Source of the DNA: Variovorax sp. 54
Lineage (GTDB): Bacteria > Pseudomonadota > Gammaproteobacteria > Burkholderiales > Burkholderiaceae_C
Direction: 5' to 3'
Assembly (NCBI RefSeq): GCF_002754375.1
Contig: NZ_PEFF01000001.1
Coordinates: 2,232,001-2,296,000, forward strand
DNA: 64,000 nt
The notes beneath the pieces were generated by a model. That model was not told where the DNA came from. It was given only the letters and a program-made list of their open reading frames with translations, and ran no database searches. The stretch's first letter is position 1, and the number at the start of each line of letters is the position of its first letter. Of this stretch, positions 24,016 to 44,414 are shown one piece after another. The position numbers and the translations under genes are program-made.

Positions 24016-24047
24016 CCGGCAACGTCCCAAGCCTGCGTGGATCAAGC

Positions 24048-24548: not shown

Positions 24549-25033
24549 ACGTCCGCACGCGCTTCATCTTGACGCGACGAGGCGGTGCAATCCGCATCCA
24601 GCGCGGAGTTGCGGCCATCGAGTTTGCGTTGGTCTTTTCGATGCTCATCCTGGTGCTCTACGGCATCGCGACCTTCGGCGCTGTCCTCTATATCCAACAG
24701 GCGATTGCACGCGCGGCAGAAGATGGTGCTCGCGTGGCATCCATGCGTCCGACATCGACCGAGCTGCAGCAAAACATCATTGATGTCGTGCGCGACTCTC
24801 TGGCGGAATCGCTCGTTGTGCCAAGTCTGCAGAACGCCAATACCGCCGCCAGACGAACTTGGATCGCCAACAACGTCGGCGTCACAGTCGACCTTCCAGG
24901 CACTCAGGTGGTGGTCAAAGTCAAGTATCCGTATGGCGCGAACCGTCTTCTGCCCACAATTCCACTGGTTGATACCAGTCGCTGGATGCCCAGTGAGCTC
25001 AAGACCCAGGCAACGGCGGCGCGCAAAACCTAG
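24545..25033 (+). CDS. tadF: TadE/TadF-like pseudopilin (second)
   Basis: The protein has 162 residues. ATG at 24545 overlaps the previous stop as ATGA; the frame is open further upstream, but this overlap fixes the start. The pseudopilin motif is QRGVAAIEFALVFSMLILVL, followed by one membrane helix, then AIARAAEDGARVASM, similar to the first TadE-like protein. Both are probably cleaved by TadV. Confidence 0.88.
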   Translation: MNVRTRFILTRRGGAIRIQRGVAAIEFALVFSMLILVLYGIATFGAVLYIQQAIARAAEDGARVASMRPTSTELQQNIIDVVRDSLAESLVVPSLQNANTAARRTWIANNVGVTVDLPGTQVVVKVKYPYGANRLLPTIPLVDTSRWMPSELKTQATAARKT

Positions 25034-25045
25034 GGGACTTACGGC

Positions 25046-27010
25046 ATGAACTCACCACTCAGCGCACATCCCATACGTCCAAGTTGGCGAGCATCTCGAA
25101 ACTTGAGACAAAGGGGGTCCATCCTGATCAATACGGCGATCGCCATAGGTCTGATCGTTCTGACATTGATTGGCACCGAACTTGGATACATGTTTTTTCT
25201 GAAGCGGGAGTTTCAGAAAACTGCGGATCTCGCCGCGCTGGCCGGGGCCCAAGCGCTCGAACCGGGTAGTTGCACGAGCGCGCAAACAGCCGCTGTAGCA
25301 AACGCTGCTTTGAACCTTCCAGGCGGCATCGCACCGCTGACCGCCGCCAACATCGAGTGCGGTCGGTGGGATCCTATCCAACGAGCAATCGCCCCTCATT
25401 TTGGCGCCCCAAACGCCGGAGAAAAGCTGAACGCCGTTCGCGTACATCTCAGCAGAGTTCCCCCGCTTCTTCTTAGTGGAATCGTCGGAAATCAGGCTCG
25501 GAAGATCGAAGTCGAAGCATTGGCAGCGCAAAAAAATCCGCGCGCCGTGCTGAACATTCGAAATACCCTTTTGAGCGTTGATTCCTCCAGATCCGCATTG
25601 CTCAACGCGGTTCTGGGCGGCCTGCTCGGTAGCAGTCTCAACGTCGACATTCTCGGCTGGAGAGGGCTTCTGAACACCAACATCAGTCTCCTTTCTTATC
25701 TTGATCAAATCGCAATAGACCTTCAAATCGGCGCCGGAAAATACGATCAAGTCCTCAATACAAAAGTTTCTGCTGGCGTTCTGCTGCAAGCCATGATCAC
25801 AGCGTTGAACCGCAGCGGGAGTACTGCAACCGCTGTCATCACGGCATTGGATGAAATCCGAATCAAGGCCAACGCCGCGGCGGCGCAACCGCTCCTGAAG
25901 CTTGGTGACTTATTGGGTGTACAGACGGGTACAGACGCCGCGGGATTGCAGACAGACCTTCAGATCTTCCAGTTGGTTCAAGGCATGATCCAACTCGCGA
26001 ACAAGGAACACGCAGTCGCTGCGAGCCTTCCCATCACCGTTCCCGGCATCGCCTCGGTCACAACCCAGGTTCAAGTCGTCGAGGCACCCCAGATCTCTGC
26101 GATCGGCAATCCTGAACTGGCCCAACTCGCATCTGATGGCCCTGATCGGATCCAGGTTCAGACAGCGCAGATACGTTCGCTGATCCAGGCTGATCTTCCC
26201 GTGCTCTCTGGCATTACGGGCCTTTTGAACGTGGTGACGGACTTGCTCACTCCAGTTACGAGCCTTTTGAATAATGTCCTCAGCCTGGATCTGCAGGCCA
26301 TTCTCTGCCTTAGCTGCACGCAAACGCGAATCCGCCTAGTGCCAGACAGTCCCGTAAGAATCAGTGTCAATTTGAACGTGGCCTCGGCAAAGTCAAAGGT
26401 AATTGGGGTCAACTGCACATCCCCAACAACCACCAGTCTCACAGTTCAATCCCGGGTCACGGCAGCTGAGCTTCGGGTGGGTCAGATATCGGACGCTGAC
26501 GGCACAGCTCTTCTCAAAACTGGAGCAATACCTGTCGTTCAACCAATCCCTGTCATAGATGTAGAAACCAGAAAATGCTACGCACTCGGCCTCGCTTGTG
26601 ACCCGTGGGAAAAGTACTCCAGAACGGGGCTCAGGGTTGATACGTCGGTCGCTGGAAATTCTGCACCACACACTTATCAGAACCCGCCCGAGCTGAACGC
26701 ACCTCCTCTCTACTACTCGCTCTCATCCACGGACATCGTTGGAAGCTTGTCAGAGACATTGAGCGGGCTTCAACTTCAAACCTACACCTACAACCCTTCG
26801 GCTCCTAACCACTTGGGTAACCTGATCGGCACGGCGACACAACTTATCCAAGGCGCTCTGAGCGTTGTTCAGGATCTCGTGACCACGCTGCTTTCCCCGC
26901 TGTTGGATTCATTGGTCAATGCCCTGTTGAATGCTCTGGGCATTCAGTTGGCCCAAGCCGATATCGGTGCTCGTCTTTCATGCACGCGCGGGGCCGAACT
27001 TGTTTTTTGA
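25046..27010 (+). CDS. tadG: TadG-like pilus assembly protein
   Basis: The protein has 654 residues. An N-terminal region GSILINTAIAIGLIVLTLIGTELGYMFFLKREFQKTADLAALAGA matches the TadG/DUF2134 family: one membrane helix, then a conserved helix with TADLAALAGAQAL. It lacks the pseudopilin glutamate. The long periplasmic part has no known catalytic motif. It carries several leucine-rich stretches of the type LLNVVTDLLTPVTSLLNN and a C-terminal cluster VVQDLVTTLLSPLLDSLVNALLN. This resembles the style of the adhesin at 37.6-41.8 kb, though similarity may be compositional. This is the last gene of the Tad run. Confidence 0.85.
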   Translation: MNSPLSAHPIRPSWRASRNLRQRGSILINTAIAIGLIVLTLIGTELGYMFFLKREFQKTADLAALAGAQALEPGSCTSAQTAAVANAALNLPGGIAPLTAANIECGRWDPIQRAIAPHFGAPNAGEKLNAVRVHLSRVPPLLLSGIVGNQARKIEVEALAAQKNPRAVLNIRNTLLSVDSSRSALLNAVLGGLLGSSLNVDILGWRGLLNTNISLLSYLDQIAIDLQIGAGKYDQVLNTKVSAGVLLQAMITALNRSGSTATAVITALDEIRIKANAAAAQPLLKLGDLLGVQTGTDAAGLQTDLQIFQLVQGMIQLANKEHAVAASLPITVPGIASVTTQVQVVEAPQISAIGNPELAQLASDGPDRIQVQTAQIRSLIQADLPVLSGITGLLNVVTDLLTPVTSLLNNVLSLDLQAILCLSCTQTRIRLVPDSPVRISVNLNVASAKSKVIGVNCTSPTTTSLTVQSRVTAAELRVGQISDADGTALLKTGAIPVVQPIPVIDVETRKCYALGLACDPWEKYSRTGLRVDTSVAGNSAPHTYQNPPELNAPPLYYSLSSTDIVGSLSETLSGLQLQTYTYNPSAPNHLGNLIGTATQLIQGALSVVQDLVTTLLSPLLDSLVNALLNALGIQLAQADIGARLSCTRGAELVF

Positions 27011-27067: not shown

Positions 27068-28483
27068 ATGAGTTCCCCCTCCAACTTCGACGAACTCGAC
27101 CTCTTTGTCTGGGAAGGCAAAGCCGACATCCTCGACCGCATTGCGCGGTGCATGGCGAGCTTCGACGTGGAAGTCATCCGGGCCGATGGCCTGCCGCCGC
27201 CTTCGCAGGACCGTGGTGTCGCGCTGCGCCCATCCGTCGCGATCATCAGCGTCACCGTCATCGACGGCGGCGGGCTGCCGCACGCGACCGAGCTGCTGCA
27301 AGGCATGCCCGTGATCTGGGTCGCTGCGGCTTCGCGCGAGCGCGATTCGCGCACGTATCCGCCCGAGTACCTGCACGTCCTGCCCTACGACTTCACCTGC
27401 GCCGAGCTGCGCACGATGGTGGCCAAGCTGGTGCGCCAGCTGCGTGCGCGCGATGTCGCGCCGCAGGCGCCCGACATGCTGGTGGCGCATTCCGATGCGA
27501 TGAAGGGGCTGCTGGCCGAAGTGGGTGCCTTTGCGGACTGCAACCATCCGGTGCTGGTGCGCGGCGAAACCGGTGTCGGCAAGGAACGCATCGCACAACA
27601 ACTTCACATCGGGCACCAGCAGTACGGCAAGGGCGCGTTCGTGGCGGTGAACTGCGGCGCGATTCCAGATGGGCTGTTCGAGTCGCTGTTCTTCGGCCAC
27701 ACGAAGGGCTCGTTCACGGGCGCGGTGCACGCGCACCGCGGGTACTTCGAGCAGGCGACGGGCGGTACGCTGTTTCTCGACGAGATTGGGGACTTGCCGC
27801 GCTACCAGCAGGTCAAGCTGCTGCGCGTGCTCGAAGACAGCGCGGTCACGCGGTTGGGGGCGACGTCGCCGATTCGCGTCGACTTCCGGCTCGTGGCGGC
27901 GACGAACCGCAATCTGCGCGAGATGGTGGCGAGCGGCGAGTTTCGGGCCGATCTGTTCTACCGGCTCGCGGTCATCGAGCTGCATGTGCCGAGCCTCGAA
28001 GAGCGCGGCGAGATCGACAAGATCGCGATCTTCAAGGCGCTGCTGACGAACGTGCTGGGCGACGAGCTCGAAGCCTTGGGCGAAACGCCGCACTGGCTCA
28101 GCGATGCGGTGGCCGAGACTTACTTTCCGGGCAACGTGCGGCAGCTGCGCAACCTCGCGGAGCGCGTAGGCGTGATCGCGCGGCAGTTGCACGCCTGGGA
28201 CCAGAACCTGATTCAGCGCGCGATCGCGCTCACACGCGGCACGCCGGCACCGGCCACGCTCGCTACCGATCGCAACGGCACGGGGGTCGCACTCGATGCG
28301 AATGGCGACCGCAAGGGTTGGAACAGCAGCGAGCGCAATCGCATCATCGCGGCGTTGGAGATCAACGACTGGAAGCGCCAGGACACCGCGCAGCACCTGG
28401 GCATCAGCCGCAAGGTGCTGTGGGAAAAGATGCGCAAGTACCAGATCCTCGACGGCGAACCAGGCATCCCCGAAGAGACTTAG
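27068..28483 (+). CDS. Sigma-54 dependent enhancer-binding activator with degenerate receiver domain
   Basis: The protein has 471 residues. The N-terminus (about 8-125) has the strand pattern of a receiver, but the expected phospho-aspartate after the third strand is Ser (AIISV) and the acidic pair is absent, as in FleQ-like proteins. The AAA+ core has Walker A GETGVGKE (about 166), GSFTGA (about 214, where GAFTGA is usual) and Walker B LFLDEIGD (about 235). The C-terminal Fis-type helix-turn-helix is about 425-460 ([17 protein letters not shown]). It lies between the Tad locus and the adhesin/secretion locus, and candidate sigma-54 promoters precede both. FleQ and BerB in this group bind cyclic di-GMP; that is possible here but not shown. 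Confidence 0.9.
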
Positions 28484-28600
28484 CTCGCCCCCAGGCTGCG
28501 CGGCACTTCGTGTCGAGCACCGAGCTCACCCCCAGCCTGCGCGCACTTCGTGTCGCTTCGCCAACCCCCTACCGGGGGCAACACCTGAGGCCCGGCAGAG
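28484..28600. repeat. Intergenic GC-rich tandem element with CCCCCTACCGGGGG stem
   Basis: Two imperfect copies of a segment containing CCCCCAGSCTGCGCG and CACTTCGTGTCG follow each other (about 28487-28520 and 28526-28558). They are followed by an inverted repeat CCCCCTACCGGGGG. The element lies between the convergent activator and TolC genes. Similar elements are common between Comamonadaceae genes and probably end transcripts; no T-tract is present. Confidence 0.55.
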
Positions 28601-28651
28601 CCGGTTCCTCGGTGTTTCGCGAAGGGGCTTCGCTGTCGCTTGCCTCGTGGG

Positions 28652-30229
28652 TCAGTTGATTCCGAGACGCGTCGTCCTGCGCAGCGGCGGGTTCGCAAAC
28701 GATGCTCCTGGCGAGCGATCGACCACAGGCTCGCTCGCGCAGGTCGTATTGCTCGAGATGCACAGCGCACCCAGCAGCCCGTCCTCGGTCAGGACATTGC
28801 GGCTCGGGGGGCCGAAGATGCGGTCGATCCAGTTGTTGGCGCCGATCGGGTCGATGCGCAGTTCGCCGGTGGTGCGCGCCAGGCGCAGCTCCGAAATTCG
28901 CAGGTCGAACACGCCGTCGATGTAGTCGAACAGCAGCGTGTAGTAGTCCAGTTGCGCATCGAGCACCTTGGGCAGGGTCTCGCGGCCGAACTCCATGAGG
29001 CGGCGGCGGCCGCGGAAGGCCTGGCCTGAGGTGCTGACGGCTTCCATCAACTGGCGCTCGCGTTCGCGGCCGGCCACGGTGCGCGACCACGACGACGCGG
29101 TGAGCTCCATCAGGTTGAGCTTCACGCCCTCCATCTTGGCTTCCTGGTTCGCGACTTCGGCCAGGGCACCCTTGAGTTTCAGCTGGCGGTCGAAGCCGTT
29201 GCCGAAGTTCCAGTTCAACTCAAACGCAGCACGTGTCGGGTCTTGCGGCGACACGCCGCGCGGGTCTTTGCTCTTCACAACGACGGCGTCGAGCGTGGGG
29301 TACAGGCTGGCTTCGGTCTGGTCGACCAGCGCGCGCGCACGCGCGACGCGGCCCTGGGCTTCGGCCAGTTCGGTGCTGCGCGCCTCGGCGCGGCGCAGTG
29401 CTTCTTCCTGCGAGCCAATGCGCCAGTGCGTCGGTGCAGCGAGCACGGGCAGCGATTCGGGAGCGGGCGAGAACTTGAAGTAGTTGCGGAACTTGGCCAG
29501 CGCCTCGTCGCGCTGGGCCTCGAAGTCGGACTCGCGCGCAGCCACGAGGGCACGGCGCGAGGCGGCCATGTTGAGGTCGTTGTCGCCGCTCACGCCGAGC
29601 GCCACGCGGCGCGCCTCGGCCTTCGACAGTTCGGCCACGACCTCGGTGGCGCGGTGTGCGATCTGTTTCTTCAGGTCGAAGCGCTGCACCTGCAGGTAGG
29701 CGGTGAGCGCGTCCAGCACGACCTTCTGCGAGGTGGTGACGACGGCTTCGTCGTCGGCCTGGTTGGCCAATTCGGCGGCGCGCTGCGTGGCGCTCATGGC
29801 GCCGCCGTCGATCAGGCTCACGCGCGCCTCGGCGGTGAGCACGGTGTAGCTCTGGCTCTGCGCATCCTTGGCGCCGCTGTTGTAGGTGCCCGACGAGGTG
29901 CCGACCTTGAAGCGCGGGTAGCGCGCCATGCGGGCCGCGTCCACGCCGAAGCTGCTGGTGCTGGCGGTGGCCTGTGCGGTCAGCACTTCGGGGTATTCCT
30001 GCGACAGCGCAATGAGCGCCTGCTTCACGCGCTGCGCAGAACTCGCGGCGCCCAGAGAAGGCGAAGACAGGCGGCGCGAGAACGCGAGCGCGGCAGGTGG
30101 CTCGTCCTGTTCAGCGGATGTCTGTTGGGCATACGCGGTGGGCGGCAACGCCATGCTGACGCACAGGGTCGCGCAGAGCACGCCCGGGGCGATGCGCGCG
30201 CGCCGGCCCGGCAACACGGGCTTGCTCAT
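28652..30229 (-). CDS. TolC-family outer-membrane channel of a type I secretion system
   Basis: The protein has 525 residues. A signal peptide ends near TAYAQ. Two OEP repeats are rich in coiled-coil segments (about 80-270 and 290-470). LIDGGAMSATQRAAELANQADDEAV and GEVANQEAKMEG-type stretches are typical of the TolC/AggA/LapE branch. It is the outer-membrane duct. Its start overlaps the HlyD stop as ATGA. A cysteine pair lies near the C-terminus (ALCISSNTTCAS). Confidence 0.92.
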   Translation of the reverse strand: MSKPVLPGRRARIAPGVLCATLCVSMALPPTAYAQQTSAEQDEPPAALAFSRRLSSPSLGAASSAQRVKQALIALSQEYPEVLTAQATASTSSFGVDAARMARYPRFKVGTSSGTYNSGAKDAQSQSYTVLTAEARVSLIDGGAMSATQRAAELANQADDEAVVTTSQKVVLDALTAYLQVQRFDLKKQIAHRATEVVAELSKAEARRVALGVSGDNDLNMAASRRALVAARESDFEAQRDEALAKFRNYFKFSPAPESLPVLAAPTHWRIGSQEEALRRAEARSTELAEAQGRVARARALVDQTEASLYPTLDAVVVKSKDPRGVSPQDPTRAAFELNWNFGNGFDRQLKLKGALAEVANQEAKMEGVKLNLMELTASSWSRTVAGRERERQLMEAVSTSGQAFRGRRRLMEFGRETLPKVLDAQLDYYTLLFDYIDGVFDLRISELRLARTTGELRIDPIGANNWIDRIFGPPSRNVLTEDGLLGALCISSNTTCASEPVVDRSPGASFANPPLRRTTRLGIN

Positions 30230-31542
30230 GGTTCGCGGAAGGCTTCGCGCCGCAGTTTGAGCACAGGCCGCAGGATGTACCAGATGAAAGGATCGGTCCC
30301 CACGCGCAGGTCGACTTCAGACTCCATGCCGGCGGTGATGCGGTTTTCTTTGCGCCCCACGTGCGACTGCGACATGCTGATGAGCAGCCGGTAGTACGGC
30401 GTGCCGTTGGCAATGGCAGCATCGCGGTCGGCGTCGGCCGCCACGAGCTTGACCTTGCCATCGACGGCGCCGTAGCGCAGGTAGTCGTAGGCGGTGATCT
30501 TCACGCGCGCCTCTTGCCCCACTTCGACAAAGCCGCGGTCGTTCGGGTTGAGGCGCGCCTCGACCATGATCTCGTCTTCGTCGGGCACCACTTCCAGGAT
30601 GGATTCGCCGGGCTTCACGACCCAGCCGGGGCTGCCGCTGCGCAAGCCCTTCACGATGCCGTCGGCCGGCGCCTTCACGATGGTGCGCGAGCGTTGCGTG
30701 CGGGCGCGTGCGAGGTCTTCGCTCAGGCTGGCGAACTGGCGCTCGACGGTGGCGAGTTCGTCCGAGGCACGGCGGCGAAAGCGGCCCTCGGCTTCGGCCA
30801 TCTTGGCCTGTGCTTCGGTGATGGCAGCCTGCGCCGAGATCACGCCCTGGCGCGCCACGGCGAGTTCGCTGCGCACGCCTTCGGCCTGGCGGCGCTTCTC
30901 GAGCACCTCGACCTGGCCGACGAGTTTTTCGCTGAGCAGTTGTTCGGAGATTTCCTGTTCTTTCTGCATCAGCTCCAGCCGGTCGCCCAGGCCCTTGACC
31001 TTGGCCTGCTGTTCGAGCTGCTTGCTGCGTGCCTGCTCCAGGTTCGACACGGCGCCGGCCATGACGCCGCGCTGTTCGAGCGCGCGCGCCTGGTAGGCAC
31101 CGACCTCGCCTTCGAGCACGGCCTCGTCGATGTCTGCATCGAACGAATCGCGCTTGAGTGGCTGGCCGCGGCTCTCGGCAATGAGCCGCACGCGGGTGGC
31201 CTGCGTGGCGGCATTGCGCGCGGTGAGCTCTTCGAAGTTCAGGCCGCTGCCGCCCAGGTCGATCTCGACCAGCGACTGGCCCTGCTTGACCTTGTCGCCT
31301 TCTTTCACGAGCACGTTGCTGACGATGCCGCCTTCCAAGTGCTGGATCGACTTCACGCGGTCGGAGGGGATCACGCGGCCCGGCGCGACGACGACGGTTT
31401 CCATCGGAAAACCGAGGCCCACCACCGCCAGCACCGCGACCGCGCCGCCGATGATCCACTGGCGCCGCCGACCCTGCGGCGTGGTCTGCGCCGCCTGTTT
31501 CTCGCTCTCGCCCTGAAGCACCTGCGGCAAGTCTGGTTTCAA
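30226..31542 (-). CDS. HlyD-family membrane fusion protein of the type I system
   Basis: The protein has 438 residues. One membrane helix (about 29-47) is followed by a biotinyl-lipoyl strand (VVVAPGRVIPSDRVKSIQHLEGGIVSNVLVKEGDKVKQGQ, with the family's HLEGGIV signature) and a long coiled coil (about 105-290). The second lipoyl half and a C-terminal beta domain carry the MEVDLRVG-type HlyD signature. It bridges the ABC exporter and TolC. The gene starts 62 bases after the ABC gene. Confidence 0.93.
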   Translation of the reverse strand: MKPDLPQVLQGESEKQAAQTTPQGRRRQWIIGGAVAVLAVVGLGFPMETVVVAPGRVIPSDRVKSIQHLEGGIVSNVLVKEGDKVKQGQSLVEIDLGGSGLNFEELTARNAATQATRVRLIAESRGQPLKRDSFDADIDEAVLEGEVGAYQARALEQRGVMAGAVSNLEQARSKQLEQQAKVKGLGDRLELMQKEQEISEQLLSEKLVGQVEVLEKRRQAEGVRSELAVARQGVISAQAAITEAQAKMAEAEGRFRRRASDELATVERQFASLSEDLARARTQRSRTIVKAPADGIVKGLRSGSPGWVVKPGESILEVVPDEDEIMVEARLNPNDRGFVEVGQEARVKITAYDYLRYGAVDGKVKLVAADADRDAAIANGTPYYRLLISMSQSHVGRKENRITAGMESEVDLRVGTDPFIWYILRPVLKLRREAFREP

Positions 31543-31604
31543 AATCCCGTACCCCTGTCTCTGTCTGTCAGTCGGTCAATCAATCGATCAAGCAAGCAAG
31601 TCGC

Positions 31605-33440
31605 TCAGGCCATCGAGCGCGAGGCGGTGGCGACGCCGGCATTGCCGTTGCTGCTGCCGTCCTCGCTGTCGCTCAGCGCCACCAGCGGCTTCTTCACGCC
31701 GAAGAGCTTGGGCACCATGACGGCGGCGGAGCCGATCTCCACGTTGCCCTGGCCGGTGACGTGATAGACGGTGGTGGCCGCCGACACGATGCGCAGCGAA
31801 TGCGTGACCACGACCACGGTGCGCACCTTGGCCACCGCGAGCATGGTCGCGAGCAGGTTGCGCTCGCTTTGAAAGTCGAGGTCGTTGCTGGGCTCGTCGA
31901 GCACCAGCACCGAGGGCTTGCGCAGGAAGCTCATGGCCAGCGCGAGCTTGCGTCGCTCGCCCACCGAGAAGCCGGTGCCGCCCTCGCCCACCACGGTGCG
32001 ATAACCGTCGGGCAGGCGCGAAATGAAGTCGTGCGCGCCCGAGAGCTTGCAGGCCGCGACGATCTGCTCGTCGCTCTGGCCCGGCGCACCGCGGCGCATG
32101 GTGTCGACGAGCGGGCCGCCGAACCAGTACACCTCTTGCGAGAGGTAGCTGATCCAGCGCGACAGCTCTTCGCGGCCGAACTGCGACAGGTCGTACTCGC
32201 CGATGCTCACCACGCCGTGCGTGGGCGTGTACAGGCCCGACAGCAGCTTCACGAGCGTCGACTTGCCCGCGCCGTTGCGCCCGACGATCACATGCAGGCC
32301 GCCGGGGCCGATGTCGAGGTCGACGTTTTCTAGCACGGGCTGCGGCGCGTCTTCGGTGAAGCTGAAGCTCACGTCCTTGAGCGTGACGCGGCCCAGCGGC
32401 TGCGGCAGCGCCATGCCGGTGGGCGCTTTCTCGACCGGCTCGCCGAGCACGGTCTCCAGGCGCTTGGCGGCTTCCTTGGCGGTGGCGAGCGAGCGCCAGT
32501 TCGACACCAGCCCGGCCACCGGCTGCAGCGCCTTCAGCGCAAGCATGTTGGAGGCGACGAGGCCGCCCACCGTCATCCACTGCTGCATGACGGAGATGGC
32601 GCCGACGGTGACAACGATCACCGAGAACACGGTGAGCAGCACGGTGGTGCCGTCGCGCGCGGTTTCGATCTGGCCGTTCTTGCCAAAGCTCTCGCTGAGC
32701 CAGGCGTTGTAGGTCTGCTGCCAGACGTCGATGGTCGGGCCGTCGTTCGACTGCGCCTTGAGCGTCTCGCGCGCATGGCAGATCTCGGAGGTGATGCGGT
32801 CCAGGCCGCGCCCGCGCAGCACTTCTTCCACGCGACCGGCGCGCACTTCGTCGGCCCACCACCAGGCCAGGAACGACATGATGGCCAGGAAGGCCACCAC
32901 CACCGGCAGCACCGGCAGCGCGACGATGCCGATCACCACCAGCGCAAAGATCGCCATCGGCAAATCGAAGATCGACTGCGCGAGCCCGCCGGTGACGGTG
33001 CCGCGCACGGCCCCCACGTCGCGAAAGTACAGCTGCCAGGACGAGGCCGGCCGCGCCTCGAGCGCGCGCAGCGGGCGACCGAGCATGGAGTGCAGCAGCG
33101 CGCTCGACACGCCGTGGTCGACGGTCGCGCCCGCGTTGCGCAGCAGGCGCGAACGCCGCGTGCGCAGCCAGAACTCGATGCACAGGAAAAACAGAATGCC
33201 GCACACCAGCGCCGCGAGCGTGGAAACGCCGCTGCGCGAGAGCACGCGGTCATACACCTGGAGCAGGAAGATCGAGGGCAGCAGCCCGAACAGGCTGATG
33301 GGCAGCGACAGCCACGCCGCACTCTTGACGAGCGGGTAGGCCGAGCGGAACGCATCGTTCAACGCACCGGCATACGGACTGGCGCCGGGAGTTTCCGGCC
33401 TGTCGGCAACCAGCTGGCTGGGCAAGAGGAACTTGATCAT
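31605..33440 (-). CDS. Type I secretion ABC exporter (permease-ATPase), with altered signature
   Basis: The protein has 611 residues. An N-terminal membrane domain with about six helices (40-330) is fused to an ATPase domain. Walker A GRNGAGKS is near residue 388, and Walker B is LVLDEPSNDLD. The ABC signature expected as LSGGQ reads FSVGERRKLALA (about 490), so the second Gly and the Gln differ. There is no N-terminal C39 peptidase or clear CLD domain, so the cargo is not processed by this protein. In context it should export the 1404-residue adhesin. The upstream gap of 91 bases holds GTTAC repeats. Confidence 0.9.
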   Translation of the reverse strand: MIKFLLPSQLVADRPETPGASPYAGALNDAFRSAYPLVKSAAWLSLPISLFGLLPSIFLLQVYDRVLSRSGVSTLAALVCGILFFLCIEFWLRTRRSRLLRNAGATVDHGVSSALLHSMLGRPLRALEARPASSWQLYFRDVGAVRGTVTGGLAQSIFDLPMAIFALVVIGIVALPVLPVVVAFLAIMSFLAWWWADEVRAGRVEEVLRGRGLDRITSEICHARETLKAQSNDGPTIDVWQQTYNAWLSESFGKNGQIETARDGTTVLLTVFSVIVVTVGAISVMQQWMTVGGLVASNMLALKALQPVAGLVSNWRSLATAKEAAKRLETVLGEPVEKAPTGMALPQPLGRVTLKDVSFSFTEDAPQPVLENVDLDIGPGGLHVIVGRNGAGKSTLVKLLSGLYTPTHGVVSIGEYDLSQFGREELSRWISYLSQEVYWFGGPLVDTMRRGAPGQSDEQIVAACKLSGAHDFISRLPDGYRTVVGEGGTGFSVGERRKLALAMSFLRKPSVLVLDEPSNDLDFQSERNLLATMLAVAKVRTVVVVTHSLRIVSAATTVYHVTGQGNVEIGSAAVMVPKLFGVKKPLVALSDSEDGSSNGNAGVATASRSMA

Positions 33441-33488
33441 GGAAAAAGACCGATCCGTCGGGCAACGACGCCGGCCCCATTATCAACT

Positions 33489-33504
33489 GTTACCCGATCG
33501 TTAC
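33489..33504. promoter_or_regulatory. GTTAC direct repeat before the ABC exporter
   Basis: GTTAC at 33489-33493 and 33500-33504 repeat 11 bases apart, about 50-65 bases before the exporter start. The half-site is the same as in the adhesin and Tad promoter regions. There is no room for a canonical sigma-54 promoter between the repeats and the gene; the nearest GC/CC pair has 11 rather than 10 bases between. Confidence 0.35.
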
Positions 33505-33531
33505 AAGGCAGAAATTCGCCTCCGACGCCTC

Positions 33532-33825
33532 TCAGCATCGGTGTGCGCGAACCTGCGCCGAACCGGTCGATTCCACGCCGCGCGTTCCTTGTGGCGCGGC
33601 GTTTTCCCTGAGCGTGCAATTCATCGTTTTGTGGGTGTAACTGTGGGCAGCGGTGCGGCCGGATGTGCCCGGCAGGCCTTCGGCAAACACGAGGGCGATG
33701 TTGGCGCATAGCAGCATGAGCAGCACCCACGCGCACAGCAGCTGCAGCCAGCCCAGCCACCAGCGCCGCGGCGGTGCCTCGCGCTCGGATTCATAGGGAA
33801 TGTGGACCAGTGCGTTCCATCTCAT
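33532..33825 (-). CDS. Small single-span membrane protein of unknown function
   Basis: The protein has 97 residues. The start at 33825 overlaps the stop of the ligase-like gene as ATGA, so it is very likely translated. A basic/aromatic N-terminus with PPRRWWLGWLQ leads into one membrane helix (LLCAWVLLMLLCANIALVFAEG, about 29-50), then a hydrophilic tail that may be periplasmic. I recognise no family. It sits between the Mur-ligase fusion and the ABC exporter, so it may connect the two in the membrane. Confidence 0.65.
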   Translation of the reverse strand: MRWNALVHIPYESEREAPPRRWWLGWLQLLCAWVLLMLLCANIALVFAEGLPGTSGRTAAHSYTHKTMNCTLRENAAPQGTRGVESTGSAQVRAHRC

Positions 33826-36800
33826 GGCAGTGCTTTCAGAACCCGGGCGAGCCGGGAAAGACCGACACCGGCGGAGCTTTTGGCCAGCACCCAGTCGCCT
33901 GGTTGCAGCAGCCCGCCGAGTGCGGTGGAGAGGTCGGACACATCGACAAACCAATGGGAGCGGACCTTGGTGCGGATGCGCGTGTGAAGCGCCCGCATCA
34001 AGGGTCCGCACAGGAGCACGCGGTCAGGTTGCGACGCCAGCAACTCGGCCTCCAGATCGAGGTGATGGCGTTGCGCCGCGGGCCCCAGCTCCTGCATGTC
34101 GCCCAAAATGGCCACCCGGCGCGCAGGCTCGCAGGGGGCTTGTGACAGCAACTCAAGCGCCGCCCGCATCGAACTCGGGTTGGCGTCGTAGGTTTCATCG
34201 ATCAGCTTGAAGCTTCCACCGCCGATGTGAATGGTGTGCAGCGCACCGCGTCCGCCCGGCGGCTCGAAGTGCGCAAAGGGTTCGACGGCGGCGGCCAGCG
34301 GCAGGCGCAGCGCCTGCAACGCGGCCAGCGCGGCCACGGCGCTGGCGCCCATGTGGCGGCCCGGCGCATTCAGGCGCAGCTGAAAGGGCTCGCCCGCCAC
34401 CTCGGCCTGCACCTCGCCGTGGTCGAAGGCGAGCAGGCGCACGTCGGCGTCCTTGTGCTCGCCGTAGGTCACGATCTGCAGCTGGTGCGCCATGGCCGCT
34501 TCGGCGAAGGTGGCGAACTCGGGCATGTCGCGGTTGAGCACCACGCGGTCGCCCGCGGCCATGGCCTGGAACATGCGGCAGTCGAGCCGCGCGGCGGCTT
34601 CCGACGGGCCGCGGTGCTTCTGCGACGCGGCCGAGATGCCCGTCACCACGATGAGCGACGGCCGCATGAGCTGCGCCGATGCGGGCATGTGCGAGGTGCC
34701 CATCTCGAGCACCCAGTAGGCGGCATGGCGCGGCATGCAGGTGAGGTTCCACGCAACGCCCGACGGCAGGCTGATGCTGCCTTCGGGCTGCGCCACTTCG
34801 CCCCACACGGTGAGCGCGCCGGCCAGCATGGCGGCCACGGTGCTGCTGCCCGCGCCGCTGCCGAGCACGCCGCACACGCGGCCGGTGAACTCGGTGCGCG
34901 CATGGTCGCCCAGCTCGAGCACGGCCTGCAGCACGTTGGGCACCTTCAGCACAGGCACGCGCTTGTCCAGGTGCGGCTTGGGGTCGGTGCACAGCACGGC
35001 CGCGGCCGGCTGCAGCACGCCCTTGAGCGTGACGGCGGCCAGCGGCGTCTTCGAGGGCCGGGCCTGGTGTTCGAACACGACGCGGCCCTTGCGCATGAAG
35101 GTGCGCTGGGTCACGCCGGTGGCGCGCCAGCCGTCTTCGGGCTTGACCACCCACTCGCCGCCGGTGACGCGCGCCATCTCGCTGGCGGTCCACACGGCGC
35201 CGTCGTCGCGCGAGCCGCTGTTGCCGCCACCGCTGCCCCCCGGGCCCGCGCCGCCGGGCTGGCTGCGCCGGTCCAGCAGGTAGCGGTGGTAGGCGGCGAA
35301 GCCCGTCACGTACTGCTCGACGTCGTCGATGCGCACGCGGAACGCGTGGTGCCGCACGAAGAAGGCGCCGACGACCGTGGACGGCCGACGAAAGTACATC
35401 GCCATCTCGGGCCAGAAGAAACCGTTGAGCAGGTAGTGCGCGCGGTAGTCGAGCGCGCGGTAGAACTTCTCGGTGTCCAGCTCGTCGAGCAGGTGCCGCA
35501 TGGCGGGCATGCTCTCCAGCCGCTGCAGCATCTGCTGCGCCGCCAGCATGAGGCTGAGCAGCGTGGGAAAGGTGGTCTTGCGGTCGAGCACGAAGTCCAG
35601 GTAGCCCGCCACGTTCTGCAGCCCGAAGCGGAAGTAGCGCTCCTGCGGGCTCCACTGCGTGAGCTCGTTCACGCAGCCGCTGAGCCAATGGTCGTGCGAC
35701 TGCCAGTGCTGGCTCGCAATGAAATGGTCGAAGGCTTTCTCGACCGCGGCCAGCCAGCGCGGATCGCGCGTGAGGCCATACAGGCGCATGAGGCCGAAGG
35801 CCGCTTCGCCGTCGTAGAAGATGACGCGCGAGGCCTGCTTGAGCGTGAGGTCGGCCGCGTGCAGCACGTGGTCGAAGCGCCCACTGGCCGGGTCTTGCAA
35901 CGCCACCATGCCCAGCGCGAGCTTCTCGAGCAGCGGCAGCCAGTGGCGCGTTTCCATCAGCTCGCAGTAGCGCACGAACATGCGCACGCAGGCCGCGTTG
36001 CCGCCCAGGCGGATCTCGCCGCCGGTGTCGACAAGGTACGCCACTTCGCGACCGTCGGGCAGCGTGTAGTCGCGGATCAGCGCGTCGGTGAGGTGGTCGA
36101 TGGCGCGGTCGATGGCCGCGCGCAGCGTGTCGTCGCGCGTGAGCTCCCAGGCCTCGAGCATGGCGTGCACGGTGCCCGCGTGGCGCATCGCGTCGTAGGT
36201 CGGGATGCGGCGATCGAAGCACGGAAAGTAGCCGTACACGAACAGGCCGTCGCTCTGCATCTGGCGCGCCAGGTATGACGAGCCGCTGCGCACCAACTCG
36301 AGCACCGACTGGGGGTTGAGCGCCGGCAGCTGGCGGCGGCCCGCGTCGAGCCCCGTGCCCACGAGCTTGTGCACCACGCCGTCGGGCTGGCAGAACACGC
36401 CGACCGTGGCCAGCAGATAGACGGTGCGCTCCGACGACTCTTCCAGCGGCAGCGTGCGCTCGAAGCGGGCCTGCGCATACACATCGAAGTTGCGCACGTT
36501 CACCACCGAATGCGCGATGGTCGAATCGCCGCACAGCATGGCGTTGGCGTTGAGCTCCTGCTCGGTGAAGGCGAAGCCGAAGTCCTGGTCGAAGGCCAGG
36601 CCGAGCCGGAAGTAGTTGCGCTTGACCGCGGTGAGCTGGGTCTTGAACTGCGTCCAGTCCATGGGACTGGCGCCCTCGACCCAGTCGATGCGCAGCCAGG
36701 GCGAGACGATGCCGCGCTCGCGCACCCATCGCTCGACGAGGTCGGCGCCTTCGCGCCAGGCGGTCTCGAAGTCGTCGGCGCGCGCGTGCACGACATGTGC

Positions 36801-36923
36801 ACGCTGCGAACCGTCGCTCACCGAGAAGAAGAGCGTGAAGGCCGGGTACGGGGCAGGCAACGCCGCGCACACGGACACCAGGCGCTCGTGGCAGGCGTGG
36901 AGCTGGTCTGAGAAGGACATCAT
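33822..36923 (-). CDS. Fusion of a helical toroid-like domain to a MurF-like ligase with degenerate P-loop
   Basis: The protein has 1033 residues and is cytoplasmic, with no signal. Residues about 1-555 are mostly helical, with repeated hairpins (GYFPCFDRRIPTYDAMRHAGTVHAMLEAWE, YDGEAAFGLMRLYGLTRDPRWL), suggesting an (alpha/alpha)6 toroid as in glycosidase or epimerase families. A Gly/Ser/Pro linker (about 557-577) follows. The rest aligns with MurF: WTASEMARVTGG, RKGRVVFEH, HRGPSEAAARLD, VVLNRDMP, GRHMGASAVAAL, TYDANPSSMRAALELL and ILGDMQELG. The ATP loop, normally GSNGKTT, reads GSGAGSSTV (about 687-695), with no lysine. It lies between the Pal-like gene and the exporter. The substrate is unknown; adhesin modification and a cell-wall link are both guesses. 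Confidence 0.82.
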   Translation of the reverse strand: MMSFSDQLHACHERLVSVCAALPAPYPAFTLFFSVSDGSQRAHVVHARADDFETAWREGADLVERWVRERGIVSPWLRIDWVEGASPMDWTQFKTQLTAVKRNYFRLGLAFDQDFGFAFTEQELNANAMLCGDSTIAHSVVNVRNFDVYAQARFERTLPLEESSERTVYLLATVGVFCQPDGVVHKLVGTGLDAGRRQLPALNPQSVLELVRSGSSYLARQMQSDGLFVYGYFPCFDRRIPTYDAMRHAGTVHAMLEAWELTRDDTLRAAIDRAIDHLTDALIRDYTLPDGREVAYLVDTGGEIRLGGNAACVRMFVRYCELMETRHWLPLLEKLALGMVALQDPASGRFDHVLHAADLTLKQASRVIFYDGEAAFGLMRLYGLTRDPRWLAAVEKAFDHFIASQHWQSHDHWLSGCVNELTQWSPQERYFRFGLQNVAGYLDFVLDRKTTFPTLLSLMLAAQQMLQRLESMPAMRHLLDELDTEKFYRALDYRAHYLLNGFFWPEMAMYFRRPSTVVGAFFVRHHAFRVRIDDVEQYVTGFAAYHRYLLDRRSQPGGAGPGGSGGGNSGSRDDGAVWTASEMARVTGGEWVVKPEDGWRATGVTQRTFMRKGRVVFEHQARPSKTPLAAVTLKGVLQPAAAVLCTDPKPHLDKRVPVLKVPNVLQAVLELGDHARTEFTGRVCGVLGSGAGSSTVAAMLAGALTVWGEVAQPEGSISLPSGVAWNLTCMPRHAAYWVLEMGTSHMPASAQLMRPSLIVVTGISAASQKHRGPSEAAARLDCRMFQAMAAGDRVVLNRDMPEFATFAEAAMAHQLQIVTYGEHKDADVRLLAFDHGEVQAEVAGEPFQLRLNAPGRHMGASAVAALAALQALRLPLAAAVEPFAHFEPPGGRGALHTIHIGGGSFKLIDETYDANPSSMRAALELLSQAPCEPARRVAILGDMQELGPAAQRHHLDLEAELLASQPDRVLLCGPLMRALHTRIRTKVRSHWFVDVSDLSTALGGLLQPGDWVLAKSSAGVGLSRLARVLKALP

Positions 36924-37034
36924 TCGGCCCCGGTCGAATGCGGGCGAAGGCCGGTCGCGTCCGTCATCTGCTCTCGCTTGGATGACGTGATCGCGGACCG
37001 GAAGCCGCCCGTGAAATCATCGCGTGCTCCCGAT

Positions 37035-37532
37035 TCAGCGGTAGCTGAACTCGGCGCGACGATTGAGCTGATGGCCCTCCTCGGTGGTGGCAAGCGATGC
37101 GGGCTTTTCAATGCCCCAGCTGATGGCTTCGATGCGTTCGCCCGGCACACCCATCTGCGTGAGCATGCGTTGCACGGACTCGGCGCGGCGCTGGCCGAGC
37201 GCGAGGTTGTATTCGCGGCCGCCGCGCAGGTCGGTGTTGCCTTCGATCACGACCCGGCTCGCCGGCCGGTTGCGCATGTAGCCCGCGTGGGCCTCGACGA
37301 TGCTGCGGTCGCCCGCCCTGACGTCGTATTTGTCGAAGTCGAAGTAGACGATCTTCGCCGGTGCGTTCGGCGGCGGCGGTGGGGGCGCCGGCTCCGGCTT
37401 GGGCGCTTCGCGCACGCTCTTGTTGGAGTAGTAGTAGGTCGCGTCGTCGCGACCGCCCTTGGGAGGCACGCCGCAGGCCACGAGGCTTGCGCCCATGGCC
37501 ACGAGGGCCAGTATCCGGAAATTCTTGTTCAT
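37035..37532 (-). CDS. Pal-like OmpA-family lipoprotein
   Basis: The protein has 165 residues. A signal ends in the lipobox LVACG (Cys near 20). A proline-rich linker (EPAPPPPPPNAPA) precedes the OmpA/MotB peptidoglycan-binding domain with IVYFDFDKYDVR, IEGNTDLRGGREYNLALGQRRAESV and NRRAEF. The usual EGHTD has Asn for His. It should be anchored in the outer membrane and bind peptidoglycan. A tolB-cpoB context is absent; it lies 89 bases after the adhesin gene and 111 before the ligase fusion, so it belongs to this locus rather than to Tol-Pal. Confidence 0.9.
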   Translation of the reverse strand: MNKNFRILALVAMGASLVACGVPPKGGRDDATYYYSNKSVREAPKPEPAPPPPPPNAPAKIVYFDFDKYDVRAGDRSIVEAHAGYMRNRPASRVVIEGNTDLRGGREYNLALGQRRAESVQRMLTQMGVPGERIEAISWGIEKPASLATTEEGHQLNRRAEFSYR

Positions 37533-37621
37533 GACGGTCCTTTCGCGGGACAGGCCGTTGTCGGCCTGTCCCTGTCTGCTGCTATCGAGGTTTCCCTTCC
37601 TCCTTCTGCGTGTCCCTTGGA

Positions 37622-40600
37622 TCAGCCCAGCAGGCCGTGCAGGATGTTGGTCACGGGTGCCAGGGCACCACCGGCCGGGCTGCTGTGGTCGACCAGGCTG
37701 GTGATCGGGGTGAGCACGTTGTCGAGCACCGGGGCCACCGTGTGTTCGACGGTGTCCAGCACACCGGTCACGACCGCGGCCACCGGGGCTGCCGGCGTGC
37801 CGGCCAGGATGTCGGTCACCGGGGCAGCCGCATGGGTCACGGTGTCGACCACCGTGGAGACCAGCGAGCCGGCAGAACCTGCCGAGCCCGTGGCACCCGT
37901 CACGCCGTCGAGGATGCTGGTGACCGGTTCCAGGATGCCGGCGACCGGTTCGGCGCCGCCCGTCAGGCCGCCGAGCAGGCCGCCCACGAGGCCGTCCGCA
38001 CCGAGCAGGCTGCCGACCAGGCCGTCGCCACCGAGGACGCCGCCGAGCAGACCACCTTCGCTGCCGCCGAGGACGTCGCCCAGGAGGCCGCCGTCACCGC
38101 CGAGGACGCCACCGAGCAGGCCGTCGCCGAGGATGCCGCCGAGCAAGCCGCCAGCGTCGCCGCCGGTCACACCGCCGAGGACACCGCCCAACAGGCCGTC
38201 GTCGCCGAGGATGCCGCCGAGCAAGCCGCCAGCGTCGCCGCCGGTCACACCGCCGAGGACACCGCCCAGCAGGCCGTCGTCGCCGAGGATGCCGCCGAGC
38301 AAACCGCCAGCGTCGCCGCCGGTCACGCCGCCGAGGACACCGCCCAACAGGCCGTCGTCGCCGAGGATGCCGCCGAGCAAGCCGCCGGCGTCGCCGCCGG
38401 TCACGCCGCCGAGGACGCCACCCAACAGGCCGCCGTCACCCAGCACGCCACCGAGCAGACCGCCGTCACCGCCGAGGACGCCGCCCAGGAGGCCACCGTC
38501 ACCCAGCACGCCGCCGAGCAGACCGCCGTCGCCACCGATGACGCCGCCCAGGAGGCCATCGTCACCCAGCACGCCGCCGAGCAGACCGCCGTCGCCACCG
38601 AGGACGCCGCCCAGAAGGCCGTCGTCACCCAGCACGCCGCCGAGCAAACCGCCGTCACCGCCGAGGACGCCGCCCAGGAGGCCACCGTCACCCAGTACGC
38701 CGCCGAGCAGACCGCCGTCGCCACCGAGGACGCCGCCCAGGAGGCCGTCGTCACCCAGGATGCCGCCGAGCAAGCCGCCATCACCACCGAGGACACCGCC
38801 CAGAAGGCCGTCGTCACCCAGCACGCCGCCGAGCAGACCACCGTCGCCGCCGAGGACGCCGCCCAGCAGGCCGCCTTCACCCAGCACGCCACCGAGCAGA
38901 CCACCGTCGCCACCAAGCAGGCCGCCCAGCAGGCCGTCGTCACCCAGCACGCCGCCGAGCAAGCCGCCGTCGCCGCCAAGGACGCCGCCGAGCAGACCGC
39001 CGTCACCGCCGAGGACACCACCCAGCAGGCCGTCGCCACCGATCAGGTGGGCCACGCCGTCGGTCACGAAGTCGACCTGCGTGTCCACTGCGTTCAGCAG
39101 GCCGGTCGTCGCGCCGGCGCCGAGCAGCTGGTCGACCACCGGGCTGACCAAGCCACCCACGCCGTCCGTCACCTGGTCGACGAGGCCGTCGGCCGGGTCG
39201 AGCACGTTCGGGTTGTTCGGCGTGAAGCTCTCGCCGAGCACCGGGGCCAGCAGGCCGTCGACCGTGTCGGTCAGGCTGTCGGTCAGTTGCGAGACCGGGG
39301 CCAGCACGTCGCCCAGGCCGAGGTCGCCGAGCACGCCGTTGTTCAGGCCGTTCGCCAGGCCGGCGACCACGCTGTCAGCCGGGTCGAGCAGCGCCGCGCC
39401 GGTGCCGGGGGTGCCGCCACCGCCGATGCCGCCGAGCACGCCGCCCAGCAGACCGCCGACCAGGCCTTCTTCACCGAGCAGGCCGCCCACGGGGCCGTCA
39501 TTGCCCAGCAGACCACCGACGATGCCGTCCGGTCCGAGCAGGCCGCCGGCACCGTCGCCGCCGAGCAGGCCACCCAGTGGGCCGTTGTCGCCCAGCAGGC
39601 CGCCGAGCAGGCCGTCGTCACCGAGCAGGCCGCCGATGGGGCCGGTGCCGCCGAGCAGACCGCCGACCAGGCCGTTGTCGCCGAGCACACCGCCCAGCAC
39701 GCCGTCGCTGCCGAGCAGGCCGCCGATGGGGCCGGCATCGCCGAGCAGGCCACCGACCAGGCCGTCGTCACCCAGCAGGCCGCCGAGCGGGCCGTCGCTG
39801 CCGAGCACACCGCCCAGCAGGCCGTCGTCGCTCAGGAGGCCGCCGACCAGACCGTCGTTGCCGAGCAGGCCGCCGAGGGGGCCGCCTTCGCCGATGACAC
39901 CGCCGAGCACGCCGCCCAACAGGCCGTCGTCGCCGCCGAGCAGGCCGCCCAGCGGGCTGTCGGCGAGCAGGCCGGACAGTGCGCCGTCCTGGCCGAGCAG
40001 GTTGTCGACCAGGCCGCCCTGGCCGAGCAGTTCGCCGGTGAGGCCTTCCGAACCGGCCAGGCCGGCCAGCACGCCGTCGCCGCCGAGCAGGCCGCCCACG
40101 AGGCCGTCGTCACCCAGCAGGCCGCCCAGGGCGCTGTCGTCGCCGAGCAGGCCGCCCAGCAGGCCATCTGCACCGAGCAGGCCGCCGGTCAGGTTGCCGA
40201 GGGCACCGTCGCCGAGCAGGCCACCCACGAGGCCGTCGCCGCCGAGCACGTTGCCCAGCAGGTCGCCGACCGCGCTGCCTTCGCCGATGAGGCCGCCCAC
40301 GACACCGTCCGGTGCCAGCAGGCCGCCGACCAGGCCGTCTTCAGCGAGCAGACCCTGCACGAGGCTGCCTTCGCCGATCACGTTCTGCAGCAGGCCGCCC
40401 AGCGCGCCGTCGTCGCCCAGCAGTTGGTCGGTCACGCCGCCCAGGCCGAGGGCGTCGGTCAGGCCGCTGACGATGCCGCTGTTGCCGATGAGGTTCTCGA
40501 GCCCGTTGTTGAGCGCGTCGGTCACGTAGTCGACTTGGTTGAGCAGGCCGCCGGTGATGGCACCTGCGGCGCCGGCGCCCAGCAGCGGATCGAGGATCGG

Positions 40601-41836
40601 GCTCAGCGTGCCGCCCAGCGGGTCGGTGATGCTGCCCACGAGGTTGTCCACCGGGTCGAGCTGGTTCGGGTTGTTGGCCTGGAACTCTTCGCCGAGCAGC
40701 GGCGCGAGCACGTCGTCGACGACGTCGGTCACGTTGTCCACCACATCGGTCACCGGGCTCAGCGCACCGCCCAGGCCGAGTGCGTCGTCCACGCCGTCGA
40801 GCACGCCACCCACGATGCCGTCGGCGGGGTCGAGCAGGTGATCGGCGTCTGCGTCGGAGTCGGCATCCGAATCGGCATCCGCGTCGGAATCGGCATCCGC
40901 GTCGGAATCGGCGTCCGAGTCGGCATCCGCGTCGGAATCGGCGTCGGAGTCGGAATCCGCATCGGAGTCGGCGTCCGAATCCGAGTCGGCATCGGAGTCA
41001 GCGTCCGAGTCGGAATCGGCGTCAGAGTCGGCGTCTGAATCGGAGTCGGCGTCAGAGTCGGCGTCTGAATCCGAGTCTGCGTCGGAGTCGGCGTCCGAAT
41101 CCGAATCGCTGTCCGAATCCGAATCCGAGTCGCTGTCGGAGTCCGAATCGCTGTCGGAATCGCTGTCCGAGTCGGAGTCGGAATCCGAGTCCGAATCGGC
41201 GTCCGCATCGGAGTCGCCGCCCGGGCCGCCCACGAACAGCGGGAAGCCGGTGGTGCCACCGTCGCCGCCGCCACCGCTGAGCGCGGCGCCCAGCGCCACG
41301 GCGCCCAGGGCGCCCAGCGCGAATTCACCGAGGCCGATACCGCTGCCGGCTGCGGTCTTCTTGGTCACGGCCAGTGCGGCCGCGTCGGCGTCGCTGTCCG
41401 GCGGGGTCACTTGCAGGTCGCCCGAGGCGACATCCACATTCACTTGTTCGAGGCCACCGGGCAGCTTGGTCGAGCCGATGGTTGCATCGGTGCCGCTGGT
41501 GAAGACGCCGGCCAGCGGCGCCTTGTTGGAGGCCGATCCGGGGAACAGCACGTTGGCCTGGCCGCCGTCCGGCACGATCACGCGGTCGCCGGCCATCAGG
41601 GTCTGATTGCCGTCCACCGGAATGCGGACACCCTCGCGCATCACTGCAACGCCGGGCGTAGCATTGGACAATGTGCCCACGCTGGAAGACGCCACGGCCG
41701 CAGGCGCGGCGGAGGCGCCGGCGCTCATGCCCGGCGCGCCTAGCGGCGTGACGGTGGCTTGGGCAAGAAGCACGGGCGCAGCGCCATTGGCGGAGAGCCC
41801 TTCGGTCGAAACGGTCGATGCTTGTGGAGCGGTCAT
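37622..41836 (-). CDS. Large repetitive adhesin, LapA-like N-terminus, type I secreted (inferred)
   Basis: The protein has 1404 residues. The start at 41836 (MTAPQAS) has AGAGG nearby; the frame extends 23 codons further. Residues about 60-145 look like a retention module ([30 protein letters not shown]), then TAAG at 161-164, a hydrophobic Gly/Ala segment (166-188), and a run of Asp-Ser/Asp-Ala dipeptides (about 207-332). An about 120-residue domain beginning DPADGIVGG follows, and a related copy occurs near residues 815-940. Between and after are Leu/Gly repeats of the [11 protein letters not shown] type with periods of 11, 21 and 26 residues. No RTX nonapeptides and no classic C-terminal secretion signal were found. 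The adjacent exporter genes make type I secretion likely. Confidence 0.82.
38129..39040 (-). repeat. 78-bp and about 63-bp tandem repeats inside the adhesin gene
   Basis: Four near-identical 78-base copies run from 38129 to about 38440 (26 residues, [10 protein letters not shown] and GGILGDDG in each). From there to about 39040 a unit of about 63 bases (21 residues, [10 protein letters not shown]) is repeated with small changes. Near-identity at DNA level suggests recent expansion and possible length variation by recombination. On the other strand these repeats create very long open frames that are not genes. Confidence 0.85.
40842..41217 (-). repeat. Asp-Ser/Asp-Ala coding simple repeat in the adhesin
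   Basis: About 125 codons alternate Asp with Ser or Ala, built from 6-base and 18-base units such as GTCGGAATCGGCATCCGC. The product is a highly acidic, extended spacer like the SD regions of surface adhesins and could bind calcium. It separates the membrane-proximal N-terminus from the first structured domain. Confidence 0.9.
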
Positions 41837-41899
41837 GGCAGCCTCTGTGACAAAAGATGCATCTACAGGGGCAACTTGCGTGCCGCTTTTCCGCCACGG

Positions 41900-41916
41900 T
41901 GCCAATGCCGCGCCAA
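41900..41916 (-). promoter_or_regulatory. Sigma-54 promoter of the adhesin locus
   Basis: Read on the minus strand, TTGGCGCGGCATTGGCA matches the consensus YTGGCACGNNNNTTGCW at all but two fixed positions, with GG and GC correctly spaced. It lies about 65 bases before the adhesin ATG. The GTTACGTAAC cluster is about 100 bases further upstream, where a sigma-54 activator would bind, and such an activator is encoded at the other end of the locus. Confidence 0.6.
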
Positions 41917-42013
41917 CGGCGCTTCAAGTGATTGATTTGTATGAGAATTTTTCTGAAAACCGCGTCCCATGCCGAACGCCGAAACCGCTCACAAAGACCT
42001 CATTTCGCGATTC

Positions 42014-42031
42014 GTTACGTAACGATGTAAC
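42014..42031. promoter_or_regulatory. GTTACGTAAC palindrome plus extra half-site upstream of the adhesin
   Basis: A perfect 10-base palindrome, GTTACGTAAC (42014-42023), is followed by GTAAC at 42027-42031, 8 bases on from the previous half. It lies about 100 bases upstream of the sigma-54 promoter at 41900-41916 and about 105 bases before the divergent DUF1841 gene. It is the clearest copy of the half-site seen in several promoter regions of this window. Confidence 0.5.
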
Positions 42032-43577: not shown

Positions 43578-43589
43578 TGCCTTCTGGTT

Positions 43590-43613
43590 ATTGAAACTGG
43601 AACAATCTTCAAT
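43590..43613. promoter_or_regulatory. Inverted repeat in the pcaQ-pcaH promoter region
   Basis: ATTGAA (43590-43595) and TTCAAT (43608-43613) form an inverted repeat with 12 bases between. It begins 13 bases before the LysR gene start and ends about 67 bases before pcaH. A T-N-A-type dyad in this place suits a LysR binding site controlling both directions. It does not match the ATAACC-type PcaQ box of rhizobia closely. Confidence 0.5.
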
Positions 43614-43680
43614 TTACATCATTGATTGCGACTTCTACAGTGCGGGCTTCGGATTCGTCCCACGACAGGAGACAACGTAC

Positions 43681-44403: not shown

Positions 44404-44414
44404 AAGGATTTCCC

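Follow-up and report, generated by a model that had tools for sequence, protein, structure and literature searches.

We analysed a 64,000-nucleotide stretch of the genome (6.64 Mb) of the soil bacterium Variovorax sp. 54, referred to below as the window, and found in it a conserved operon that encodes a large adhesin together with its exporter. We lean towards reading it as an adhesin/type I secretion operon of BapA-like kind, in which one gene product serves as a dedicated partner of the adhesin's acidic dipeptide tract. The candidate partner is the toroid half of a toroid/MurF-like fusion protein. This toroid is the constant member of these loci, and the emphasis that the original prediction, made from the sequence alone, had placed on the MurF-like half was probably misplaced. 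The parts on which the argument turns are as follows.

37622..41836, minus strand: adhesin gene with Gly-Leu-rich repeats, 1404 codons from the ATG (open reading frame and Pfam/NCBIfam searches)
41198..41836, minus strand: N-terminal module of the adhesin, residues 1-213, beta-rich at about 54-161, tentatively anchoring- or retention-like
40793..41251, minus strand: (Asp-Ser/Ala)n dipeptide tract of the adhesin
33822..36923, minus strand: toroid/MurF-like fusion, 1033 aa
35241..36923, minus strand: toroid half of the fusion, residues 1-561, with the alpha/alpha barrel at residues 200-556
33822..35213, minus strand: MurF-like half of the fusion, P-loop lost, probable pseudoenzyme

In Proteobacteria, Staphylococcus and Enterococcus, the toroid usually adjoins adhesins with long (Asp-Ala/Ser)n tracts. 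With a strict tract defined as a run of at least 10 dipeptides, 49 of 70 toroid loci contained one, 22 of them outside Variovorax (a few strains are present twice in the 70-locus set), and none was found in 40 control type I secretion loci from toroid-negative genomes of the same family. For these controls, a single HlyD place was taken from each genome, close to the top of the match list; toroid-positive genomes were excluded, as were three places near the start of a contig (G031, G067 and G050), and 8 of the 40 loci span less than 20 kb. Among the 21 toroid loci lacking a strict tract, 12 lie on contigs that end before the adhesin start and one (L036) has a tract that is long but less regular. 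Counted over the 58 testable loci, a tract is present in 50.

The N-terminal module of the window adhesin occurs at 26 places in 13 of 200 genomes, and within this one adhesin family toroid and tract co-vary. All 12 places in the eight toroid genomes carry a tract (the copy in G014 is frame-split), including four second adhesins distant from the toroid gene. In the five genomes where the toroid is degenerate or was not detected, none of the 13 assessable places carries one; a 14th tract-negative place (L170) is cut 7 residues past the module and was excluded. In three of the five (G072, G170 and G115), a degenerate toroid occupies the same operon slot and Asn-Pro-Thr-Asp linkers replace the tract, and in the other two a search at E 1e-30 found no toroid. 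The toroid family is linked to (Asp-Ala/Ser)n adhesins in two phyla with differing secretion routes.

The toroid half adopts an alpha/alpha barrel fold as in AGE epimerase and GH76, with at most 12% identity to two such chains (cellobiose 2-epimerase and GH76 barrels, PDB 3wkf and 4v1r). The window toroid gave no Pfam family match, other members of its set (A3) gave only weak GH127/GH88 matches (E 0.011 and 0.027), one relative (P0190) bears a precomputed GH88 label, and a PDB profile search with the toroid alignment returned a single, non-significant chain. Across 34 toroid sequences, 32 polar positions are conserved at 94% or more. The sugar-enzyme-like fold and these positions would favour catalysis over mere binding.

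The family is rare. We found it in 10 of 200 genomes of the family, 3 of 300 of the order, 4 of 370 of the class and 13 of 397 of the phylum, counts that come from differing queries on overlapping samples and include the host each time, and in 54 of 72,556 plasmid records. Plasmid loci include sdrF-toroid-glycosyltransferase in Staphylococcus epidermidis, Sdr-like adhesin-toroid-Mur ligase in S. simulans, "clumping factor" pieces with an exporter and a toroid/GT4 gene in K. aerogenes, and adhesin/exporter loci in Agrobacterium, Nitratireductor and Sulfitobacter. Partners of the toroid vary between Mur ligase, CapA and glycosyltransferase (GT), and toroid-GT2 and toroid-GT4 fusions are present in the protein database. 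In Kosakonia, the neighbours of the toroid are LapG, LapD and a large frame that bears a tract; a divergent Mur+S11+CapA gene is also present. The host itself has two paralogues, one a fusion of toroid, CapA and Mur (L008:10319-15235) and one of toroid, Mur and a D,D-carboxypeptidase-like domain (L009:7966-12468); both Mur P-loops are intact, and the 20 kb fetched for each shows no tract. Tracts linked to GT are rich in Ser (2 of 2, plus a Ser-Asp run in L186), and 11 of 14 active-Mur loci are rich in Ala; with three Mur exceptions (L037, L102 and L036), we regard the pairing of GT with Ser and Mur with Ala as a tendency and not a rule.

Other observations concern the surroundings of toroid genes. 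Three loci whose fetched stretch contains no adhesin (L034, L035 and L185) make up a second class, in which a small secreted-looking protein adjoins the toroid; it has weak metallopeptidase matches in L034 and none in Pfam in L185. A further recurrent neighbour, at toroid loci with an active Mur or CapA partner, is a predicted secreted alpha/beta-hydrolase (S9-like; L032:9906-10844, L077:8944-9855, L094:18105-19151, L101 and L148). The draft genome G014 has its toroid gene broken across two frames (L031, at about 9026-9035), through sequencing error or decay.

In the mechanism that we propose, the toroid would recognise the Asp tract in the cytosol and probably help to modify it before or during export. 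No signal peptide was seen by eye in the fusion protein, which is therefore presumably cytosolic and not at the wall; as type I substrates exit the cytosol in a single step, any action on the tract would have to precede or accompany export. Many tracts are nearly pure Asp-Ala, and since Asp is their sole reactive side chain, the likely action would be decorating or processing of Asp side chains. Where a variable partner (active Mur ligase, CapA or glycosyltransferase) is present, it would make the moiety or attach it; where the partner is dead or missing, the toroid alone would do so. That Mur ligase, CapA, GT2 and GT4 are interchangeable suggests a core tract-recognition unit combined with a donor/attachment module. 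This would give the adhesin, next to its anchored end, a bulky, protected and stiff stalk comparable to the Ser-Asp stalks that are glycosylated in the Sdr proteins of staphylococci. It is possible, and we put it forward tentatively, that the whole family is an Asp-directed system, present in at least two phyla, that uses these same interchangeable donors to decorate the carboxylates of (Asp-Ala/Ser)n tracts before the adhesin leaves the cytosol, and that the Mur module of the Variovorax clade has decayed to a pseudoenzyme.

Several points weigh against a partner that modifies the tract. Modification is a step that we infer, a common fold does not establish function, and acidity alone can slow proteins on gels; for the BapA protein of Paracoccus denitrificans, whose gel position is discussed below, the authors name composition first, with modification not excluded in the available part of the paper (PMC5588039). 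Tracts also occur without a known toroid, and S. aureus uses SdgA/SdgB (PMC3794999). The tract is missing from 8 of the 58 testable loci (L008, L009, L034, L035, L038, L097, L099 and L104), of which L008 and L009, the host paralogues, and L038 are Variovorax paralogues. In a hold-out of eight toroid loci from newly sampled genomes of the phylum, only three have an Asp-Ala/Ser tract, among them L186 with a GT4-like fusion. Two of the eight have neither a tract nor an adhesin-like gene, and in two the gene before the toroid is adhesin-like and truncated at the end of the contig (Ig/cadherin repeats in one, VWA and RTX in the other). The remaining one has an Asp-Gly tract at an autotransporter gene just upstream; this gene (L190:5853-8957, beta-domain E 4.5e-46), with a 178-residue Asp-Gly tract in the stretch, may represent a third route by which toroid-linked tracts are secreted. 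The tract counts moreover ignore kinship, and the named loci are mostly from Variovorax; the controls are exporter loci and not matched adhesins; and with toroid-negative calls made at E 1e-30, weak relatives elsewhere may have been missed.

The toroid could instead be a cytosolic chaperone or export pilot that binds the polyanionic tract non-covalently, shields it and feeds it to the exporter without any chemistry. The linkage and co-variation data also fit this reading, the toroid occurs with dead or missing Mur partners, and it stands beside type I and Sec/LPXTG-type adhesins alike. The 32 conserved polar positions, however, look enzymatic, as do the fusions to glycosyltransferases, CapA, Mur ligases and a peptidase-like domain, and we consider a pure chaperone rather unlikely. 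A poorer candidate still is a gene for a capsule-like polymer (a poly-amino-acid or a cell-wall branch) that travels in adhesin operons as a passenger and does not act on the adhesin. The CapA (PGA_cap) and D,D-carboxypeptidase-like domains of the paralogues point in that direction, as do the toroid loci that lack an adhesin in the fetched stretch. By Pfam, the CapA domain of poly-gamma-glutamate (Cap/Pgs) synthesis (PF09587), present in a host paralogue, is absent from the window fusion. Against a passenger role, adhesins whose genes lie far from the toroid also have the tract when the genome has a toroid, and the same pairing is found in Firmicutes with a different secretion route.

The original prediction had suggested that, at the cell wall, a working MurF-like ligase may tether the adhesin or modify it. 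This we consider highly improbable, and we reject MurF as an enzyme for the window clade. Residues 574-1030 of the fusion do have the MurF fold (PDB 4cvk and 1gg4), but the P-loop position reads GSGAGSST, without the Lys of the ATP-binding GxxGK[S/T] motif. The loop is lost in all 8 Mur domains examined of the window clade (L057 gave no match in this comparison and is left out of the count), and the V. beijingensis orthologue (P0088) likewise has none; it is intact in 17 of 17 other toroid-associated Mur domains. In the "HLE...K" segment, both the His and the Lys, which we take to be catalytic in MurF, are also changed in the clade, and the Mur half is missing altogether from two operons of the same type as that of the window (L033 and L079). 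The presumed cytosolic location of the fusion likewise speaks against tethering at the wall. Database names often read "Mur ligase" even for toroid-only proteins without a Mur domain, and such labels steer readers toward peptidoglycan.

The other features of the operon and its flanks are as follows.

41870..41885, minus strand: sigma-54 (-24/-12) promoter site CGGCAC-GCAAG-TTGCC (CGGCAC-N5-TTGCC), read in the sequence
37035..37532, minus strand: Pal/OmpA-like lipoprotein, 165 aa (OmpA domain E 6.6e-20; lipobox by eye)
33532..33825, minus strand: single-span membrane protein, 97 aa (frame also present in the 4 other Variovorax loci read)
31605..33440, minus strand: type I secretion ATP-binding cassette (ABC) exporter
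30226..31542, minus strand: HlyD-family adaptor (TIGR01843 above cut-off)
28652..30229, minus strand: TolC-family outer membrane protein
27068..28483, plus strand: sigma-54 activator, AAA+ plus Fis helix-turn-helix, convergent with the TolC gene

Open reading frames and Pfam/NCBIfam searches bear out the seven minus-strand genes in the order first described, with gaps of 89 and 111 bases as claimed, and the start of the 97-aa protein, for which a Pfam search gave no match, overlaps the stop of the fusion by ATGA. The fusion protein is 99% identical to proteins of V. boronicumulans. Conservation of the gene order reaches well past close strains, with the series adhesin, Pal-like lipoprotein, toroid/MurF fusion, exporter, HlyD and TolC recurring in Pseudacidovorax, Xenophilus and four further genera. 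The sigma-54 promoter predicted at the near end is present (41885-41870). Of 31 loci in which the adhesin start is present, 30 have a GGCAC-N5-TTGC core, with a variable spacer, upstream of the gene (28 of 29 when two strains present twice are removed), among them loci of Pseudacidovorax, Xenophilus and three further genera; L033 has no core. Because a longer frame from TTG 41905 would traverse this promoter, we set the adhesin start to ATG 41836. Operon and promoter site are both conserved, which supports a single sigma-54-promoted adhesin-secretion unit as originally proposed.

A sigma-54 activator was also found at the far end as predicted; its N-terminal ~130 aa gave no Pfam match. It lies on the other side of the operon, 57 bases past the end of a Tad/Flp-pilus cluster (window 19425-27010; T2SSE ATPase, T2SSF and Tad_C/TadE-G-like by Pfam), so that its pairing with the adhesin promoter is something we only infer, and it may belong to the Tad cluster. 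A Tad-like match holds the same place in many relatives. Upstream of the adhesin, a LysR regulator and dioxygenase-like genes occupy window 42579-45026, and LysR or dioxygenase matches hold that place in many Variovorax relatives. A defence library scan gave regulator and MotB/OmpA-type matches only.

The adhesin had no Pfam match at E 0.1 and matched no RTX model in NCBIfam, that is, RTX calcium repeats were not detected by these searches. NCBIfam matches were confined to a serine-rich model and the Ser-Asp portion of ClfB/Sdr models, all far below cut-offs, at residues ~220-356 of the longer 1427-aa frame. The model of the N-terminal module had a mean predicted local distance difference test score (pLDDT) of 58, and its best Foldseek row was weak (5ix9, "Cell surface anchoring domain", E 0.2, target template modelling score 0.68). 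The host has a second adhesin with the same module (79% identical; C1:5947012-5947578, L163 and L180), which lies far from the toroid operon, about 3 kb from a sigma-54-activator-like match, and has an Asp-Ala/Ser tract of its own.

The likeness to LapA-type systems that had been drawn holds for the type I exporter genes beside a large adhesin and does not extend to LapG or LapD. LapG (PF06035) had no match in the host genome, with a positive control found in Caulobacter, and LapD (PF16448) had none either; 14 LapD controls were silent, and the same search finds LapD in Kosakonia, whose loci, unlike the host, combine the toroid with LapG and LapD. With no LapG, LapD or RTX match, the system is not LapA-type in the strict sense, and we reject the LapA/LapG/LapD reading for this host. 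In contrast to LapA systems, control here may be transcriptional, given the sigma-54 site. LapA/LapG/LapD and Shewanella BpfA share with the operon the large adhesin and the ABC-HlyD-TolC exporter. Shewanella also has an OmpA-like member: the claim that a Pal-like protein is unknown in such loci is not supported, as the LapA-type bpf cluster contains SO4321, which functions in biofilm formation (PMC4523816), and the Pal-like member is thus not new.

Among type I adhesins, Paracoccus denitrificans BapA also has an Asp-Ala tract: it is required for biofilm, has 891 Asp-Ala repeats and runs at >300 kDa on gels against 212 kDa calculated (PMC5588039); the available part of that paper describes no partner enzyme for BapA/BapBCD. 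Burkholderia cenocepacia bapA shares the adhesin and three downstream exporter genes on one transcript, a four-gene operon with no toroid or Mur gene described in the available text (PMC3426421). A literature search over titles and abstract openings, which was not exhaustive, found no paper linking a Mur-ligase or toroid gene with such adhesins; a paper on adhesin methylation (PMC11784438) concerns another adhesin type and was set aside.

The SdgA/SdgB glycosyltransferases are encoded beside the SD-repeat adhesins of Staphylococcus, put N-acetylglucosamine on Ser and thereby shield the adhesin from a host protease (PMC3794999). The likeness lies in an accessory gene next to an adhesin with a long acidic dipeptide tract, and an SD-type tract is found here; the toroid, in contrast, is another protein family, and many toroid-linked tracts are almost without Ser. 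S. epidermidis sdrF has a toroid neighbour, whereas the available parts of the SdgA/SdgB paper mention none (PMC3794999), nor do those of two papers on glycosyltransferase pairs beside sesJ (PMC4850167 and PMC7029136). Since Pfam and NCBIfam found no glycosyltransferase among the operon proteins and the protein family differs, the operon would resemble, by analogy, an SdgA/SdgB-type tract-dedicated accessory system and not be a member of it. If the toroid acts on acidic dipeptide tracts, a family present in two phyla would gain a function, the role of Asp-Ala tracts and the high gel position of Paracoccus BapA would become directly testable, and Gram-negative type I adhesins would be tied to the Sdr-type adhesins of staphylococci.

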